Both the position numbers and the translations under genes were made by a program. From a virus, in IMG/VR virus record IMGVR_UViG_3300027817_000002, positions 1-36,963 of that record: 36,963 nt of DNA. One strand, 5' to 3'. The notes beneath the pieces were generated by a model. The model was given only the letters and a program-made list of their open reading frames with translations. It was not told the origin of the DNA and searched no databases. This document shows, piece after piece, positions 7,140 through 36,963 of this stretch (positions are counted from its first letter, which is position 1; each line of letters opens with the position of its first letter).

Positions 7140-7183
7140 TTTATGATCCGACAATACTGAAATTTACAGAGTAGTCTTTTCAC

Positions 7184-7309
7184 GTGAATAAAGATGAATT
7201 GTTTTGGGAAAATAGGATTACCAGTTTAATGATAGTAGCGACGCGGACAGTGACGCGATTCCTTGTCCTGAGAGGAAGCGAATATGGGGTCATCAGGCGT
7301 GAAAGCTGA
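7184..7309 (+). CDS. Possible small protein with GTG start (competes with an RNA reading)
   Basis: A 41-codon frame from GTG 7184 begins MNKDELFWENRITSLMIVAT and ends GSEYGVIRRES. It looks protein-like, but its codons (GCG, ACG, CGG, CTG, GTC) are unlike those of neighbouring genes and no good ribosome site precedes it. The same bases can form a tRNA-like fold (see 7231-7394). Either reading implies a different origin from the surroundings. Confidence 0.3.
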   Translation: MNKDELFWENRITSLMIVATRTVTRFLVLRGSEYGVIRRES

Positions 7310-7394
7310 CAGTAGCGGGATCATATTGATGAGTCAGATATATATGATGAACAAGACACGATTATTCTAGCCGGTGCAATTCCGGCCTACTATC
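7231..7394 (+). ncRNA. Candidate structured RNA with tRNA-like geometry and a long insertion
   Basis: An 8-bp stem closes the element (GATAGTAG 7231-7238 with CTACTATC 7387-7394). Taking 7 bp as the acceptor, two bases follow, then a D-like arm (CGCG 7242-7245/7254-7257) and an anticodon-like arm (7260-7264/7272-7276) with loop GTCCTGA. A 5-bp T-like arm with a 7-base loop (7370-7386) directly abuts the acceptor 3' strand. About 93 bases with further hairpins occupy the variable-loop position. The T loop (TGCAATT) and D loop lack invariant residues, so this is at best a tRNA relic or tRNA-like RNA; chance is not excluded. Confidence 0.25.
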
Positions 7395-7424
7395 AACCAT
7401 TTTATTACACATTAGGCGTTTACA

Positions 7425-7595
7425 GTGACACTATTTGATGTGTGGTACGCAAGGGCAGAATGTTTCACATGGCACGAAAAGGCAGAATGGTTCTCAACGT
7501 CATGTGAATCAGGAGAGGAAGCATGGTCAGCAGCATGGAAACAAGAAGCTGATGATTTAATAGAAATATTGGAATCTATGAATATTAAGGAATAA
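7425..7595 (+). CDS. Small Trp-rich acidic protein with GTG start
   Basis: A 56-codon frame from GTG 7425 with AGG eight bases upstream. It begins MTLFDVWYARAECFTW and is acidic, with six Trp; GEEAWSAAWKQEADDLIEIL is a likely helix. The frame is open only from just before the GTG. Many phages carry such Trp-rich small proteins of unknown role. It is followed at once by the AUU-start fragment at 7598. Confidence 0.6.
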   Translation: MTLFDVWYARAECFTWHEKAEWFSTSCESGEEAWSAAWKQEADDLIEILESMNIKE

Positions 7596-7597
7596 TA

Positions 7598-7651
7598 ATT
7601 AAATTAACTTCTCGTCAAGAATGGTTTAAAAATAGAATTAAAGATTGCTAA
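7598..7651 (+). pseudogene. Fragment related to the gene at 9368, only AUU available as start
   Basis: Six bases after AAGGA an ATT opens a 17-codon frame (KLTSRQEWFKNRIKDC). This resembles the N-terminal part of the 9368 product (ELIPRREWLTSRINQC). No ATG, GTG or TTG is available. It is either a decayed copy or a micro-gene using AUU. Confidence 0.3.
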
Positions 7652-7661
7652 GGAGAAGTAT

Positions 7662-7838
7662 ATAAGCATAACAGATAGAATTGAGCCTAGAGAAACTTTA
7701 GATAATTTCTTAATTGATTATGAATTACAAAGAATAGCTTTTGTAAAGACGTTAGATTTTGTTAAACAAATTGTAAAAGATTGGGAATGCAATCTCGATC
7801 AGGCAGAAACTTTATTAAAAGAATTAGGTGAAAAATGA
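7662..7838 (+). CDS. Small helical protein, probable AUA start
   Basis: AAGGAG is followed at six bases by ATA, then an open frame of 57 further codons ending in an ATGA overlap with the next gene. The product would read MSITDRIEPRETLDNFLIDY and be helical and acidic. There is no ATG, GTG or TTG in frame in the first part; an in-frame stop lies upstream, just before 7613. Start position and overlap both argue for real translation, so AUA initiation, or a mutated ATG, is likely. Confidence 0.5.
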   Translation: MSITDRIEPRETLDNFLIDYELQRIAFVKTLDFVKQIVKDWECNLDQAETLLKELGEK

Positions 7839-11342: not shown

Positions 11343-12899
11343 ATGGATAATGAAGAACGCCAGATACGCATAAAGCTACGAGATGACTTTCGTCATTATT
11401 CTGCTAAATGTCTCAAGATTCGCACAAAATTTGGGGTTGATAAATTTTCAATGAACCGAGCTCAGTCATACCTGCATGATATTGTAGAAAAGCAAAAACG
11501 TGAGACTGGAAAAGTTCGTATCGTGATCTGCAAAGGGAGGCAGCAAGGATGTTCAACTTATATTGGTGGAAGATATTATTGGCTGGTTACTCATAATATA
11601 GGGACTAGAGCATTTATTCTGACTCATGATGGAGACGCAACAAATAATTTATTTGATATGACGCAAAGATATCATGAAAATTGCCCTAGATCTGTTAGGC
11701 CTGTTGCTGATACCAGTAATGCGAAAGAGCTTTATTTTGGTGGCCTTGATTCTGGTTATAAGGTAGGAACGGCTGGTAATAAGGGTGTTGGAAGGTCCAG
11801 TACTATTCAGTACCTTCACGGTTCCGAAGTATCGCTTTGGTCTAATGCTAATGAACATGCGAAGGGAATAATGCAAGCCGTACCTAATGCGCGTGGTACA
11901 GAAATATTTCTAGAGTCAACTGCAAATGGTATTGGTAATTATTTTCATCAGCAATGGCAATTAGCAGAGTCTGGAGAGTCGGATTTTATTGCTGTATTTT
12001 TACCATGGTATTGGCAAGATGAATATAGAAGAGAAGTAACCGAAGGTTTTACTAGAAATGATGAAGAGATTGAAATTGCAGATTTATATGGATTAGATAA
12101 TGAGCAATTACAATGGAGAAGATATAAAATAACAGAGCTTTGTGTTTCAGGTGCTGATGGTGTAAAAGGATTCAAGCAGGAATATCCTAATAATGCCACT
12201 GAAGCATTCCAGGTGTCAGGTGAAGATACATTCATAAGTCCTGATTTAGCTATGAGAGCTAGAAAAACTGAAGTAGATGCATATGGACCATTAGTAATAG
12301 GCGTAGACCCAGCTAGATTTGGACAAGACAGAACCGCTATAATACGTCGACAAGGACGCAAGATGTTTGGTCTAGAGCGTTATGTAAAAAAAGACACAAT
12401 GGAGATCGTAGGCATTGTTCATCGAATTATTATTAATGAGTCTCCAGATAAAGTGTTTGTCGATATTGGTGGCCTTGGCGCTGGCATCGTTGACAGGCTG
12501 CACGAGCTGGGCCATAGAGACTTAGTGGTCGGGGTTAATAGTGGATCAACTCCGCTAGATCAGCAGTTATATTTGAATAAGCGCTCTGAAATGTGGGGAG
12601 AATTTAAAAAATGGCTTCAAGATGAGCCTTGTCAGATTCCAGATAATGACGAATTACATGCTGATATATGTTCTACTCGATATAAGTATGATTCTTTAAC
12701 TCGCTTAGTGATGGAGCCTAAGGCTGACATGAAGAAACGAGGTATTAGATCTTCAGATTGCTGTGATGCCGCTTGCTTAACATTAGCTTTCCCTATTGCT
12801 GCAATGATAGGACAATCAAAGAAGTCTGCCGAAAAAGCTAAAACCATTATGTCTACGTTCAAAAAAGCTCAACGTTTAAGAGAAAATGTGTTTAAATAG
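11343..12899 (+). CDS. Terminase large subunit (P22/Sf6-like, headful packaging motor)
   Basis: 518 residues. The ATPase half carries a Walker A-like GRQQGCST (65-72), a Walker B with catalytic Glu in IQYLHGSEV and the coupling motif LESTANG. The RNase H-like nuclease half has GVDPARFGQDRTA (Asp near 322), VFVDIGGLGAG (Asp near 373) and SDCCDAACLT (Asp near 475). It cuts concatemers and pumps DNA into the prohead through the portal. Its length suits Sf6/P22 enzymes (about 470-500 residues). It starts two bases after the preceding stop, and the portal gene follows after a 113-base gap. Confidence 0.95.
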   Translation: MDNEERQIRIKLRDDFRHYSAKCLKIRTKFGVDKFSMNRAQSYLHDIVEKQKRETGKVRIVICKGRQQGCSTYIGGRYYWLVTHNIGTRAFILTHDGDATNNLFDMTQRYHENCPRSVRPVADTSNAKELYFGGLDSGYKVGTAGNKGVGRSSTIQYLHGSEVSLWSNANEHAKGIMQAVPNARGTEIFLESTANGIGNYFHQQWQLAESGESDFIAVFLPWYWQDEYRREVTEGFTRNDEEIEIADLYGLDNEQLQWRRYKITELCVSGADGVKGFKQEYPNNATEAFQVSGEDTFISPDLAMRARKTEVDAYGPLVIGVDPARFGQDRTAIIRRQGRKMFGLERYVKKDTMEIVGIVHRIIINESPDKVFVDIGGLGAGIVDRLHELGHRDLVVGVNSGSTPLDQQLYLNKRSEMWGEFKKWLQDEPCQIPDNDELHADICSTRYKYDSLTRLVMEPKADMKKRGIRSSDCCDAACLTLAFPIAAMIGQSKKSAEKAKTIMSTFKKAQRLRENVFK

Positions 12900-13012: not shown

Positions 13013-15205
13013 ATGAATGATGATACGAATGTCAATGAATTAACTCGAATTAAGAATAATATAGAAAAAGCATATCAATATTTCAAGCCTAATTACGATA
13101 GATTCAATTATTTTCGTAAATTCGTATTTAACACTACAATCGATACTAAGATATCTGAACTATATAACACTCTAAAAAAGCCTGCATTAGAATTTAACAT
13201 TCTAGAAGCTTATATATCTCGATTGCGTGGGGAGTTTAGCAAGCAAGAACCATCTATTGAAGTAATGGCTGGAGATGAAGAGCAAGTTGACCCTAAAGTT
13301 ATTGAAACAGTGCAAGGGCATCTTAAACATATTCTAGATGAAGCAAATAAAGATGGATTTGAGTATCAAATATACACAGATACGTTGAGTGGTGGCTTCA
13401 GTGTTGGTAAAATATGGACAGAATATGCTCATGAGATGAGCTTTAATCAAGTAATTAAGATTGGCCGTGTATATGATCCTATTTTATGTGGATTTGATCC
13501 AATGGCTCGTCAACCTCACAAAGGAGACGGTAATTTCTCTTTTGAGCTTTTCCCAATGACCAAAAATGATTTCAAATCAGAATATCCAGATGTGAATATT
13601 GATAAAATGAAATTTACAGGTTCCATTGAAGGATTTAGCTGGGCTTATAAGTCAGGTAAAGATGATATAGTTTTAGTGGGTGATTATTATGAAAAGAAAA
13701 AATCAGAAGTAGAAATTGTTAATCTTTCTGATAAGCGTACGATGAAAATTAAAGATTATAGGAAACTTATAAAAAATTGGGATAAAACTGGAAATATTGA
13801 GCAGCCTCCAGTGATCGTTGGAAATCCAAGAAAAACTAAAATAGAGACTATTGTTAGAACTGTTGTTATCGATAATGCAATTATTGAAACAGAAGTGACA
13901 GATTATAAAATTCTTCCTCACATATTTTTCGATGGTAATTCTGCACTCATGCGAGATGAAAGAGGTGGATCTATTCATCAAATGACAAGACCTTATGTTT
14001 ATCAAGCAAAAGGCATGCAAATTCTTAAGAATTTCTCAGGTGTATCATTAGCAGCAGAAATTGCAAATACAATTCAGCATAAGTTCAAAGTAGCACGTGA
14101 ATCTATTCCAGAAGAAAGAGATTTTCAAGAAGCTTATCAAAATACGCAGAACGCTGATGTATTGGTATATAACTATTTAGATCCAAATCGACAAGACGTT
14201 ACGTTGCCTGCTCCGCAAGAAATACAGAGAGTGCCAATTCCCCCAGAATTAACTGGAACTTTTCAAGGTGCTGATGCATTAACGCAAACTATATTAGGCA
14301 ACTTTGATATGGATTTAGGTAAAATTAATCAACAACAAATATCAGGTATTGCTGTTCAAGAATCTATTACACAAAGCAATAGTGCTGCAATGCCTTATAT
14401 AGTGGGATTTTTGCAAGGACTAGGGAGAATAATGTATGGATGTGTTGATCTTCTGCCTAAGTATATTGTTACTCCACGCACTATTCCGGTGGTGGGAATA
14501 GATGGCAAGAGATCATATCAGTCTGTCAATCAAGAAGGCGGCATTGAAATGAAATATGGAGATAATGCGCTTAATGTAAAAATTAAGCCTGGGGTGAATT
14601 TCTCTGTACAAAAATCGCGTAATTTCGCTACAATAGTTGCTCTACAACAATCATCTCCACAATTTGCTGAATTCATGGCAACTGAAGGAATGATGTTCTT
14701 ATTGAAGAATGTGGAAATGCAAGGAATCGATGAATTGAAGATGGCTGCCGAGCAATGGCAACAGCAAATGCGTGAAATGAAGCAACAGCAAATGGAACAA
14801 GCAAAAAATTCTCCAAATCCTGAAATGATAAAAATGGAAATGATGCAGCAAAAAATGGAAAGTGATTCCAAGAAAAATGAGATGGATATTCAAATTAAAG
14901 CGGAAGAGCTTAAAGTTAAGCATATGGATGCTGAATTACGCCATGATGCAACAATTAAGAAAGCTGAAGCTGAAGAAGTGGCTGCTGCATTGAGAGTACA
15001 AGTTGAACGTATGAAATTACAGCATGAACATGGAGTTGATCATCATAAAGCTACTCATGATATGCGTGAGCAAGAGCATAAACATGCTAAGGATAAGGCA
15101 GAAATGGCATTAAAGCATATCGATATGGAGCATAAACATGCTAAAGATTATCGAGATGAAGAGCGTGCTAAAAAAGATAATAAAAAGGAAAACAAAATTA
15201 AATGA
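13013..15205 (+). CDS. Portal protein (P22-like)
   Basis: 730 residues, the length of P22 gp1 (725). The N-terminal part (YQYFKPNYDRFNYFRKFVFN; KKPALEFNILEAYISRLRGE), GGFSVGKIWTEY and the LGNFDMDLGKINQQQISGIA segment follow the P22 portal family. Residues about 570-730 are a long Gln/Met- then His/Lys-rich helix, comparable to the portal barrel. Twelve copies form the DNA channel at one vertex. TGGA lies nine bases before the ATG. Its stop overlaps the sigma-like gene by four bases. Confidence 0.93.
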   Translation: MNDDTNVNELTRIKNNIEKAYQYFKPNYDRFNYFRKFVFNTTIDTKISELYNTLKKPALEFNILEAYISRLRGEFSKQEPSIEVMAGDEEQVDPKVIETVQGHLKHILDEANKDGFEYQIYTDTLSGGFSVGKIWTEYAHEMSFNQVIKIGRVYDPILCGFDPMARQPHKGDGNFSFELFPMTKNDFKSEYPDVNIDKMKFTGSIEGFSWAYKSGKDDIVLVGDYYEKKKSEVEIVNLSDKRTMKIKDYRKLIKNWDKTGNIEQPPVIVGNPRKTKIETIVRTVVIDNAIIETEVTDYKILPHIFFDGNSALMRDERGGSIHQMTRPYVYQAKGMQILKNFSGVSLAAEIANTIQHKFKVARESIPEERDFQEAYQNTQNADVLVYNYLDPNRQDVTLPAPQEIQRVPIPPELTGTFQGADALTQTILGNFDMDLGKINQQQISGIAVQESITQSNSAAMPYIVGFLQGLGRIMYGCVDLLPKYIVTPRTIPVVGIDGKRSYQSVNQEGGIEMKYGDNALNVKIKPGVNFSVQKSRNFATIVALQQSSPQFAEFMATEGMMFLLKNVEMQGIDELKMAAEQWQQQMREMKQQQMEQAKNSPNPEMIKMEMMQQKMESDSKKNEMDIQIKAEELKVKHMDAELRHDATIKKAEAEEVAAALRVQVERMKLQHEHGVDHHKATHDMREQEHKHAKDKAEMALKHIDMEHKHAKDYRDEERAKKDNKKENKIK

Positions 15206-15795
15206 ATGAAGAATATAGAATAGAGATTAAAGTTAAAAATAATCTATTAATAAAAAAAATAGAGGAAGCTGGATATAAAACAGTGGGAGAATTTTGTCGT
15301 TTAAATAATATGACTAATTGCACATCAAAATTAGGTGATATTATTAATATGAAACGATCTCCTTTAAGATCTGACGGGCAATGGCAGTCAATCATATTAA
15401 AATGTTCTGATATTCTCAATTGCATGCCAGATGATTTTTTTACACATGCCCATTTAACAACTATTCTGAAAACTAACACGCGTTCTATTCAAATAAATGA
15501 AGCTGAAATGAAGTTTATGTTAGAAAATAAACATAATTTATCTTTAGAAGAAGATCTTCACAAAAAAGATGGAGATAAAAAGCTATTAAATATTGTAAAT
15601 AATAATTTAACTCCAAGAGAATCTAAAATATTAAATCTTAAATACGGATTAGAAGATGGCAAAGAGATGACATTAGGAGAAATTGGAGAAATGTTTAAAA
15701 TAAGTGTTAGTAGAGTTAAGCAAATTGAAAATAAAGCATTAAGAAAGCTGCGTCATCCAAGAAATTCAGAAGAATTAAGAGATTTTATAGTGTAA
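15202..15795 (+). CDS. Sigma70 region-4 protein with N-terminal Xre-like domain
   Basis: 197 residues. Residues 136-196 read like sigma70 region 4: LTPRESKILNLKYGLEDGKE, TLGEIGEMFKISVSRVKQIE, NKALRKLRHPRNSEELRDF, including the HTH that contacts the -35 element. There is no region 2 for the -10 element. Residues about 13-80 (LIKKIEEAGYKTVGEFCRLN to CSDILNCMPDDFF) look like a Cro/CI-type helical domain. A region-4-only protein could sit on the RNA polymerase beta flap and redirect it to phage promoters. It is coupled to the portal gene by ATGA, an unusual place for a regulator. Fold calls are strong; the role is inference. Confidence 0.85.
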   Translation: MNEEYRIEIKVKNNLLIKKIEEAGYKTVGEFCRLNNMTNCTSKLGDIINMKRSPLRSDGQWQSIILKCSDILNCMPDDFFTHAHLTTILKTNTRSIQINEAEMKFMLENKHNLSLEEDLHKKDGDKKLLNIVNNNLTPRESKILNLKYGLEDGKEMTLGEIGEMFKISVSRVKQIENKALRKLRHPRNSEELRDFIV

Positions 15796-16403: not shown

Positions 16404-16407
16404 TAAT

Positions 16408-16475
16408 AAAGATCTATTGACAATTTAATGATCTTTGTGGTGTACTATTTGTACTCAGCTATGAGGCACAAATAG
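16408..16475 (+). promoter_or_regulatory. Structured leader before the scaffold/coat genes (two hairpins)
   Basis: Hairpin 1: AAAGATC (16408-16414) with GATCTTT (16430-16436), enclosing a TTGACA. Hairpin 2: CTATTTGT (16445-16452) with ACAAATAG (16468-16475), extended by CTCA/TGAG inside, a long stable stem. Neither has a T tract. The 140-base gap 16404-16543 thus holds structured leader RNA or operators ahead of the most highly expressed genes. Confidence 0.6.
16417..16446 (+). promoter_or_regulatory. Possible promoter before the scaffold gene
   Basis: Consensus TTGACA (16417-16422), an 18-base spacer and TGTACT (16441-16446); TACTAT at 16443 is an alternative with a 20-base spacer. The -10 is poor, so it may depend on the phage sigma region-4 protein. 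Confidence 0.3.
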
Positions 16476-16543
16476 CCGTAGACCTTCAACGATACTGAAT
16501 GAGCGTTATACCGTGACGGGGAAAATAGTCAAGAGGAGCAAAA

Positions 16544-17287
16544 ATGGTAGAAGATTTAGAAGGTGGTAGCAGTTTAGGTCAGCAACCTGCATCTGATATG
16601 GGAGTTCCATCTCAGTCTCAGGAAAGAATGTTTGCACAATCAAAAGTTGAAGAATTGATCAAAGAACGGGTAGATAAGAAAGAAGCTCGTTTAAGACAAG
16701 AGCATGAGAAGGAAAAAGCTGAGTGGCACGCTAAGAATAATGCCCAGCAAAATTCTCATCAACAATCAAGTATGGGAGGAATGGAAAGCTTTTCCCCAGA
16801 AAGAATTCAACAAATGGTTGAAGAAGCAACGAGGAAGCAGCAAGAGCGCCTTACTCAGGAATGGTTAGTACATAACCAAGCTCAACAAGATGAGAATATA
16901 TTGAATTCTTTTGTTGGTAAGTTGCAGAATGCTTCTGATAAATATGCTGATTTTGATGAGAAGGTATCCTCTCTTCAGTTAGATAAAATACCTAATATTA
17001 TTAGGTTATCTGATGAAGTAGATAATACTCAAGATGTTATATATGACTTGGCTGAGAATCCAGGTAAATTGGGAAATATATTAGCCTTAGCTAATGATCC
17101 AAACACATCTCATCTCGCAAAAATTGCTATGAAACGTTTAAGTGATTCGATCAAACAAAACGAATTATCTAAAAACGTAAGGCACGCTTCAAATCCTCTT
17201 AGACCAGTTAAGCCCTCTTTATCAGGTACAGATAATGGCTCAAACGGTGTCAGTGGATTGCGTAAACAACCTTGGTTAAAAGTATAA
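16544..17287 (+). CDS. Scaffolding protein
   Basis: 247 residues, charged, Gln-rich and helical, directly before the coat gene. Residues 30-110 are coiled-coil prone (VDKKEARLRQEHEKEKAEWH). A second helical part covers about 120-215, and a disordered tail ends in GLRKQPWLKV. This composition, length (P22 gp8 is 303) and position define a P22-type internal scaffold that guides coat assembly and leaves before DNA entry. AGAGGAG lies six bases before the ATG. Confidence 0.85.
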   Translation: MVEDLEGGSSLGQQPASDMGVPSQSQERMFAQSKVEELIKERVDKKEARLRQEHEKEKAEWHAKNNAQQNSHQQSSMGGMESFSPERIQQMVEEATRKQQERLTQEWLVHNQAQQDENILNSFVGKLQNASDKYADFDEKVSSLQLDKIPNIIRLSDEVDNTQDVIYDLAENPGKLGNILALANDPNTSHLAKIAMKRLSDSIKQNELSKNVRHASNPLRPVKPSLSGTDNGSNGVSGLRKQPWLKV

Positions 17288-17356: not shown

Positions 17357-18676
17357 ATGGCTCTTCCTAGTAATTTTTTACAAACCGTCCAAACTTATCA
17401 AGAATCAGAGTTAGCATATTTATTGAATTTATGTTGCTTTGTTAATACTGCTAATACTAAATTTAAAGACTTCGAAAATTTTGAAGGAAATTTGGGTGAT
17501 ACAGTAACTTTTGATTTACCACCACGCTATGTAACAACAGCTTCTTTAGTGGCAACATTTCAAACATCACAACAACGCGTACAAAATTTAACTGTAGATC
17601 AAGCAGTAAGTGCATCTTATGCTTTCACTAATCAACAGTTCATTTTTAACGTTCGTGATTATATGGAAAAATTTGGTAAATCAGCTGTCACAGAATTAGG
17701 TAATAATATAGAAGCAACTATTGCTAAAACTGCTAATTCTTCAGTTCAAGTTATGACAGTTAACGGCCAAGGACAATCTGTCCCAACAGGTGCATTGCAT
17801 ACTGAATCTGGTCCTTACCGTTTCTTTGGTGATGGTATTACGCCAATCAACTCATATGGTCAATTATCTAATATGTTAGCAGCTTATCGTAATTATGGTG
17901 CTGCAAAAGATAAAATTAAGGTTTATTTATCAGATATCGCTGTTCCACAAATTGTTAATACAGGTTTAAACCAATTTACAATTGATCGTGGCAATGAAGA
18001 TGCCATGTCATGGATGGTTGGTAACTGGCTAGGTGTTGATTATTATCAGTCAAACTTATTGCCAATTCAAAATGCAGGTAATGTTGGTAACAATGGTCGT
18101 ACATTGACATTAGTTAGCACAAACGATCCTACAGGTGCCAATGTTACTGCACTAACTTTCTCTGATACTACTGCTACAGATGCTAATGCAATCAAATCTG
18201 GTGATTTGGCTCAGTTCCAGGATGGTGTAGCCAATCAATTAAATATACGGTTCTTGACATTCATCGGACATGCTCCATGTGCTCAACCAGTACAATTTAG
18301 AGCAACTGCTGATGCTGCAACAAGCGGAAGTTCAGTAACCGTTAACATTATTCCAGCACTTTGTTGGCAAAATGGTAATGCAAATCAAAACTTAACTAGT
18401 GCTTTAGTTGCTGGTATGCAAGTTAAGTTTCTTCCTTCTCATAGAGCAGGTTTAATTGTTGGTGGTGATTCATTGTATCTTGCAATGCCAAGATTGCCTG
18501 ACCAATCTCCATTCGTAACTGCAAATGAAGCAGATCCAGATACTGGTGTTTCTATGCGTTTATATTACGGTACATTATTTGGTCAAAATCAAATGGGTTG
18601 GGTTCATGATTGCGCATTCGGTGTAACAGGCGTTCCTGAATATCAAATGCGAATTGTATTCCCAGTAACTCAATAA
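17357..18676 (+). CDS. Major capsid protein (P22 coat-like)
   Basis: 439 residues, against 430 for P22 gp5. The start MALPSNFLQTVQTYQESELA, the segment FEGNLGDTVTFDLPPRYVTT and DYMEKFGKSAVTELGNNIEA follow the P22 coat family, an HK97-fold shell protein with an inserted domain. Ala/Thr/Val-rich and cysteine-poor, as expected for an abundant virion protein. A strong GGAGATAGAG ribosome site precedes it. It lies between scaffold and a putative decoration protein. Confidence 0.93.
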   Translation: MALPSNFLQTVQTYQESELAYLLNLCCFVNTANTKFKDFENFEGNLGDTVTFDLPPRYVTTASLVATFQTSQQRVQNLTVDQAVSASYAFTNQQFIFNVRDYMEKFGKSAVTELGNNIEATIAKTANSSVQVMTVNGQGQSVPTGALHTESGPYRFFGDGITPINSYGQLSNMLAAYRNYGAAKDKIKVYLSDIAVPQIVNTGLNQFTIDRGNEDAMSWMVGNWLGVDYYQSNLLPIQNAGNVGNNGRTLTLVSTNDPTGANVTALTFSDTTATDANAIKSGDLAQFQDGVANQLNIRFLTFIGHAPCAQPVQFRATADAATSGSSVTVNIIPALCWQNGNANQNLTSALVAGMQVKFLPSHRAGLIVGGDSLYLAMPRLPDQSPFVTANEADPDTGVSMRLYYGTLFGQNQMGWVHDCAFGVTGVPEYQMRIVFPVTQ

Positions 18677-35129: not shown

Positions 35130-35324
35130 ATGAAAAAAGTTGGTTCAATAAAAGAATTTAGAAAAGAATTTAATATTTCTCAGTCAGAATTATCCAAAAA
35201 AACTGGCGTTTCTCAATCTCTTATATCTAATTGGGAATCAGGTAATTGGAGTTTTAGCTTAAAGAATTTCATAAAAATAAGAAAATTTATTAATTTAAAT
35301 GGTTACGACATAGATTTTATATAA
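35130..35324 (+). CDS. Cro/CI-type HTH repressor
   Basis: 64 residues from ATG 35130, six bases after TTGGAG; upstream in-frame codons are not needed. FNISQSELSKKTGVSQSLIS is a textbook HTH_3 motif (helices about 15-22 and 26-34), followed by NWESGNWSF. There is no protease or dimerisation domain, so it is Cro-like. Alone on the plus strand between two leftward operons, it probably represses the divergent promoter at 35110-35082. Confidence 0.88.
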   Translation: MKKVGSIKEFRKEFNISQSELSKKTGVSQSLISNWESGNWSFSLKNFIKIRKFINLNGYDIDFI

Positions 35325-36302: not shown

Positions 36303-36963
36303 TTAATTAATAGTTTTACTAAAATGTAAGTTTAATCCAACTTGAGCATAAGCACTTGTTGCTGCGGCAACTAATGATATCTCAAATACATATTTAGCTG
36401 CTGACACATTCAAGAAAGCAGGGGTAGTAACAGCTAAATTAGTTAGATAAGAGAAAGTTTGTACTGCAGTAGATAATGATCCTGTTAAAGGAATATTAGT
36501 AATAACATTAGCAGCGTTATTAGTATAAGAAACACTATATAACGCTCCTGTGTGTGTTGTCACTGCTAATACACCAATATCATAGATAACATCAATACTT
36601 TGTAATCTAAAGCCTTTGTTAGCCGCAGCTCTTAATTGAGGAGTAATATCGAATCCAGTAACGGATGAATCAGCAGCCGGAGTTTTAGCATTAATGTAAT
36701 CGCCTGCTCCATTTCTTTGAATAGACCAAGCACCCGCTGTATGAGCAAGAATACTTTCTAATCCAACGAATTGTTGATAATCACTAACGATATTTGCAGT
36801 ACCCGTTATTTGTCCTGTTGTTCCATTAAATACTGCTATGTCACCGCTGTTTACAGGTAATAAAACATTTCCAGTATTAACATATAAAGATAGAGTTATA
36901 ATTCCATTATTAAATGTTGGCAAAAGTTCAGCAAAAGTACCGGTTCCTGTTGATGGTGAATAT
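36303..36963 (-). CDS. Virion-type protein, C-terminal part of the junction-spanning gene
   Basis: This part continues the frame that starts at 278 and crosses the circle junction; together 279 residues. Segments such as NGIITLSLYVNTGNVLLPVN, GAWSIQRNGAGDYINAKTPA and the terminal SAYAQVGLNLHFSKTIN are beta-prone and Ala/Thr/Asn-rich. No signal peptide. An internal ATG at 36923 would give only 206 residues and is not preceded by a good ribosome site, so the long form is preferred. Probably a decoration or spike protein; family not recognised. Confidence 0.85.
   Translation of the reverse strand, partial: YSPSTGTGTFAELLPTFNNGIITLSLYVNTGNVLLPVNSGDIAVFNGTTGQITGTANIVSDYQQFVGLESILAHTAGAWSIQRNGAGDYINAKTPAADSSVTGFDITPQLRAAANKGFRLQSIDVIYDIGVLAVTTHTGALYSVSYTNNAANVITNIPLTGSLSTAVQTFSYLTNLAVTTPAFLNVSAAKYVFEISLVAAATSAYAQVGLNLHFSKTIN
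36865..36963. repeat. Direct terminal repeat, right copy (circular closure)
   Basis: Identical to bases 1-99. See the left copy. Confidence 0.95.

Follow-up and report, generated by a model that had tools for sequence, protein, structure and literature searches.

Region 4 of bacterial sigma-70 ordinarily contacts the beta-flap of RNA polymerase and the -35 element, and the phage proteins AsiA, Gp39 and P7 act on or displace the host copy of this domain (PMC7403470). The T4 protein gp33 is structurally unrelated to region 4 and makes DNA contact via the backbone only (PMC7892883), in SigO-RsoA the sigma regions are divided between two proteins (PMC10141391), and the Gram-positive Ltr regulators, which are smaller than the protein described here, adjoin their promoter (PMC13123087). 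We analysed the virus record IMGVR_UViG_3300027817_000002 (IMG/VR; 36,963 nucleotides, hereafter the window), which encodes a protein of 197 residues with a predicted Xre-like N-terminal domain fused to a sigma-70 region 4. An initial inspection of the letters alone (the sequence-only reading) had placed this gene between portal and scaffold, and an open reading frame (ORF) was found there exactly. The gene and its parts are:

15202-15795, + strand: the Xre-like/sigma-region-4 fusion gene, 197 residues.
15202-15531, + strand: N-terminal domain (residues 1-110), assigned by fold matches of an AlphaFold model with a predicted local distance difference test score (pLDDT) of 88.1.
15532-15603, + strand: low-confidence linker (about residues 111-134), whose length differs among relatives.
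15604-15792, + strand: sigma-70 region 4 (residues 135-197; PF04545), with a Z of 11.6 to E. coli sigma70 530-611.
15706-15723, + strand: equivalents of sigma70 584-589, which are V, S, R, V, K, Q in the window copy and R, E, R, I, R, Q in most relatives.

The C-terminal half is close to the region 4 of housekeeping sigma-70, as first proposed. The Pfam Sigma70_r4 profile matched residues 135-185 at 1.3e-16, the best PDB sequences for this half were domain 4 of RpoD/SigA, with about 51% identity between the C-terminus and S. aureus sigmaA domain 4, and structural alignment placed residues 116-196 onto E. coli sigma70 530-611 with a root-mean-square deviation of 1.9. A match to phrog_36, described only as 'transcriptional regulator', was restricted to residues 92-184 (2.4e-7), and none of ArpU, RinA or Ltr was named among the best 25 of 43 NCBIfam rows. 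The proposed absence of region 2 also held, with no match to Sigma70_r2 (PF04542) across the terminally redundant window or 34 related records (35 in total), using a profile that found matches in 10 of 14 control genomes. Because region 2 is absent, the sequence excludes that the fusion protein is a complete sigma factor by itself. Across 50 relatives and in sigma70 numbering, R588 and Q589 are each conserved in 96%, R586 in 92%, E585 in 86% and R584 in 58%, positions which we take to be the -35 contacts of sigma70. L607 is kept in 94% of the relatives and region 4 is retained to its last helix.

The N-terminal half is invisible to profiles, with no match of its own in Pfam (including no helix-turn-helix (HTH) family), PHROGs or NCBIfam. 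It was modelled alone with 17 sequences, and the model comprises a strand (residues 4-10), helices at 14-22, 28-34, 38-48, 63-72 and 76-79, a second strand (93-99) and a helix at 100-108. Five of the helices form a repressor-type HTH, to which residues 4-10 and 93-99 add a two-stranded sheet; the EYR..VKVRNN strand is among the best-conserved stretches of the family. Foldseek returned no significant match with the N-domain model by itself. VIA structural re-alignment gave Z values of 5.4-7.2 over about 65 residues, mostly to structures that are Xre-type or repressor-type HTH by title, including BldD, ImmR, SinR, 434 Cro, P22 c2, lambda cI and the cI N-terminal domain of the cI/sigma-4/DNA structure 1RIO; some of the matches are enzymes, of which a small domain, N-terminal or internal, was aligned. 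These scores are modest and depend on a predicted model; on this basis the N-domain is a predicted five-helix Xre/lambda-repressor-like HTH, in line with the Xre-like assignment made initially. The full-length AlphaFold model (pLDDT 64) is weak in the linker.

The two domains occur together in a family. Iterated IMG/VR searches returned 5, 4, 14, 34 and then 199 relatives, 80 of which were fetched in the last round, and at least 50 distinct full-length relatives were obtained when grouped at 85% identity. Since all 50 align over both halves, the sequences indicate that the pairing of the two domains is real and not due to chance. Both halves are under purifying selection in a subset of ten related members, with median dN/dS of 0.11 for the N-domain and 0.15 for sigma-4. 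Neither a set of 50,697 phage records nor a plasmid collection yielded a relative of the fusion, and searches of isolate phages and plasmids with N-domains of several subfamilies returned nothing significant. Two apparent full-length phage matches, MT839896 and MT839319, were rejected as bacterial rpoD-type genes lying beside primase or rpoB-like genes on unannotated contigs. The short sigma-4-like ORFs without an N-domain in L004-L006, L177 and the second ORF of L062 were likewise excluded, and the sole match of a genome-contig scan, a Lachnospiraceae gene of 372 residues, has sigma-factor length and does not belong to the family. A search of the open-access literature did not find an Xre/sigma-4 fusion of this kind. 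The family appears to be an undescribed group of phage regulators that combine a repressor-type domain and sigma-70 region 4 in one covalent chain; it is common among environmental viral contigs, whereas isolate phage genomes yielded no member.

We tentatively propose, as a reading that stops short of probable, that the fusion protein is a phage transcription regulator of the activator type that steers the host polymerase through two heads contacting DNA and RNA polymerase. The N-terminal Xre-type domain would bind an operator that overlaps or adjoins certain promoters, the C-terminal sigma-4 would dock on the beta-flap, read a -35-like element, or both, and a flexible linker would join the two heads. 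One chain would then do the job of lambda cI and sigma region 4 sitting side by side on DNA, and the host polymerase would be directed to chosen phage promoters. That the protein binds the flap and an operator is inferred, as is the direction of its effect, for which activation has a slight edge over repression. Contact with both RNA polymerase and a DNA site of its own is plausible from the sequence and the models, because a housekeeping-like region 4, without region 2, shares one chain with a distinct DNA-binding fold. If the fusion docks on the polymerase, it would offer a minimal model for adding promoter specificity to the holoenzyme.

The genomic setting of the family was then compared. 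In the window the order is TerL, portal, fusion gene, two short ORFs, scaffold-position ORF and major capsid protein (MCP), and the start of the fusion gene and the stop of the portal gene share an ATGA overlap:

11343-12899, + strand: TerL.
13013-15205, + strand: P22-type portal gene (PF16510, 2e-73).
16404-16543, + strand: leader of the scaffold gene, with a perfect TTGACA at 16417 followed by the ACCGTGACGGGG..AGTC module.
16544-17287, + strand: scaffold-position ORF, no family match above the cut-off.
17357-18676, + strand: MCP (phrog_283).

P22-type portal or MCP genes lie nearby in four representatives; the fusion gene is between portal and scaffold in three (the window, L025 and L092) and between TerL and portal in the fourth (L003). 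Replication, recombination, methylation or partition markers were found in the fetched flanks of 28 of the 50 representatives. An ORF judged CsrA-like by eye lies at 7324-7578 (+) of L010, just upstream of its fusion-gene relative. A search with the MCP supplied 80 loci from the P22-like clade of the window, and the portal-to-scaffold interval carried the fusion gene in 4 of the 60 loci counted. Since L025 and L107 represent one contig, this amounts to 3 of 59 contigs, among which there are close relatives of one another. Of the long P22-like records, whose completeness is not stated, 29 of 30 had no match at all, and the remaining one (L156) gave only L177, 1492-1767 (-), a 91-residue sigma-4-like ORF without the N-domain. 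The suggestion that the regulator is linked to capsid synthesis through its location among the head genes is thus not borne out, given the rarity of the gene in these intervals, its absence from the long relatives and the location of most family members elsewhere, near replication genes.

The scaffold leaders point in the same direction. The sequence-only reading had taken poor boxes ahead of late genes as fitting a helper, and this is contradicted by the perfect TTGACA with which the window leader opens. Long relatives without the fusion gene retain a scaffold leader of this kind, in several cases behind a TTGACA-N18 promoter. L110, L120 and L122, which lack the fusion gene, carry TTGACA-N18-TAGGCT ahead of scaffold, with a weak -10 and with the TTGACA placed comparably to that of the window and L025. 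Because these gene-less loci keep the TTGACA leader and few intervals carry the gene, the sequences indicate that the fusion gene is accessory, optional cargo in the P22-like clade rather than a constant component of the capsid cluster, and that scaffold expression across the clade is independent of it. A sigma70-type promoter with 17-base spacing precedes the fusion gene itself in L058-L060, L063 and L061. A consensus promoter scan of the AT-rich window was uninformative, its counts being equal to those of shuffles (109 vs 111; 99 vs 111).

The same leaders contain tandem H-type pseudoknot modules (window 16404-16543, L025 8844-8973 and leaders in L098-L176), for example CCG-TGAC-GGGG..GTCA and CGC-AGCTAT-GCG..ATAG, in which loop and partner change in matching fashion. 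In 59 distinct leaders 86 modules were counted, against a shuffled mean of 5.2 and a maximum of 12 in 50 shuffles; the count includes overlapping stem registers and related leaders and does not represent 86 independent events. Rfam matches in the window, L025, L092 and L003 were limited to tRNAs, and the L135 leader gave no match of note. The leader is possibly an undescribed RNA element controlling scaffold or capsid expression.

In light of these data, the proposed regulator can be weighed against other explanations. It is supported by the prediction of both folds, their linkage in 50 relatives, purifying selection in the subset, the lack of region 2, a full-length, housekeeping-like sigma-4, the frequent location of members in replication/recombination regions, and a conservation of -35 contacts that would be unlike a pure flap-binder. 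Several points weigh against it. The window copy is coupled to the portal stop and would be produced after late transcription is under way, which makes it ill-suited as a trigger of late transcription; it may instead act as a feedback or late switch, and the timing may differ in relatives at replication-region positions. At 584, 585 and 588 the window copy also has V, S and K in place of the usual residues, and its reading of the -35 element may therefore be altered; no operator was identified. An unlikely but substantial alternative is a repressor, whose Xre and sigma-4 heads would cover an operator plus the -35 element and block the host polymerase at particular promoters, sigma-4 being only a second DNA-binding head. 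Many DNA-binding Xre proteins act as repressors, the N-domain fold is repressor-type and the -35 reading residues are kept in most relatives; isolated sigma-4, however, is a weak DNA binder, and a sigma-4 complete to its last helix exceeds the needs of a DNA reader.

Two further explanations are built on the flap, each of which we consider rather improbable. In one, the sigma-4 module would compete with region 4 of the host sigma70 for the beta-flap and weaken host -10/-35 promoters, much as the sigma-4 displacers AsiA, Gp39 or P7 do, with the Xre head making exceptions of phage promoters. Phage displacers of flap-bound sigma-4 are known (PMC7403470), a housekeeping-like sigma-4 is a natural competitor and many relatives lie in replication regions, but the known displacers are not sigma-4 copies, displacement needs none of the -35 contacts that are conserved here, and the window copy is encoded late. 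In the other, the protein would act in trans and take the place of host region 4 on the flap, so that a composite holoenzyme of host regions 2-3 and phage region 4 would form, with upstream specificity from the Xre operator; if true, this would be a widespread and undescribed way to redirect host RNA polymerase. A structural or morphogenesis protein, suggested by the portal-scaffold position and by nothing else, is highly improbable, as the gene is missing from 56 of the 59 intervals and from long relatives that share these head genes, the majority of the family is located outside head-gene regions, and both domains are transcription-type folds.

Direct terminal repeats of 99 identical bases (1-99 = 36865-36963) make it probable that the window is a complete genome, about 36.9 kb long. 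A 32-nucleotide repeat with a ATCAACGGCACAGCGTGCCAACGA core occurs five times at 1898-2081, within the ORF 1574-2431. At 7140-7834, about 700 bases flanked by + strand ORFs hold no ORF of at least 60 residues and are locally GC-richer; nothing was found there in Rfam at gathering thresholds. A small gene at about 35131-35324 (+) encodes a product that is Xre/Cro-type by eye (MKKVGSIKEFRKEFNISQSELSKKTGVSQS).

Compared with known systems, SigO-RsoA differs in that no region-2 partner for the fusion was found in the 35 records searched. RinA/Ltr and ArpU are likewise small phage regulators and act at late promoters, whereas the fusion has 197 residues with an added Xre domain. AsiA, Gp39 and P7 share the target surface proposed for the fusion; to our knowledge, none is itself a sigma-4 homologue. 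T4 gp33, a beta-flap binder and late co-activator, is likewise a phage protein that would occupy the sigma-4 place on the flap, whereas the fusion carries a genuine sigma-4, in which the -35 contacts are mostly conserved, together with an Xre head. In the complex of the lambda cI N-domain and sigma region 4 on DNA (PDB 1RIO), a repressor-type HTH likewise sits beside sigma-4 at a promoter; there, however, the two are separate proteins with sigma-4 coming from the host side, whereas here they form a single phage polypeptide.
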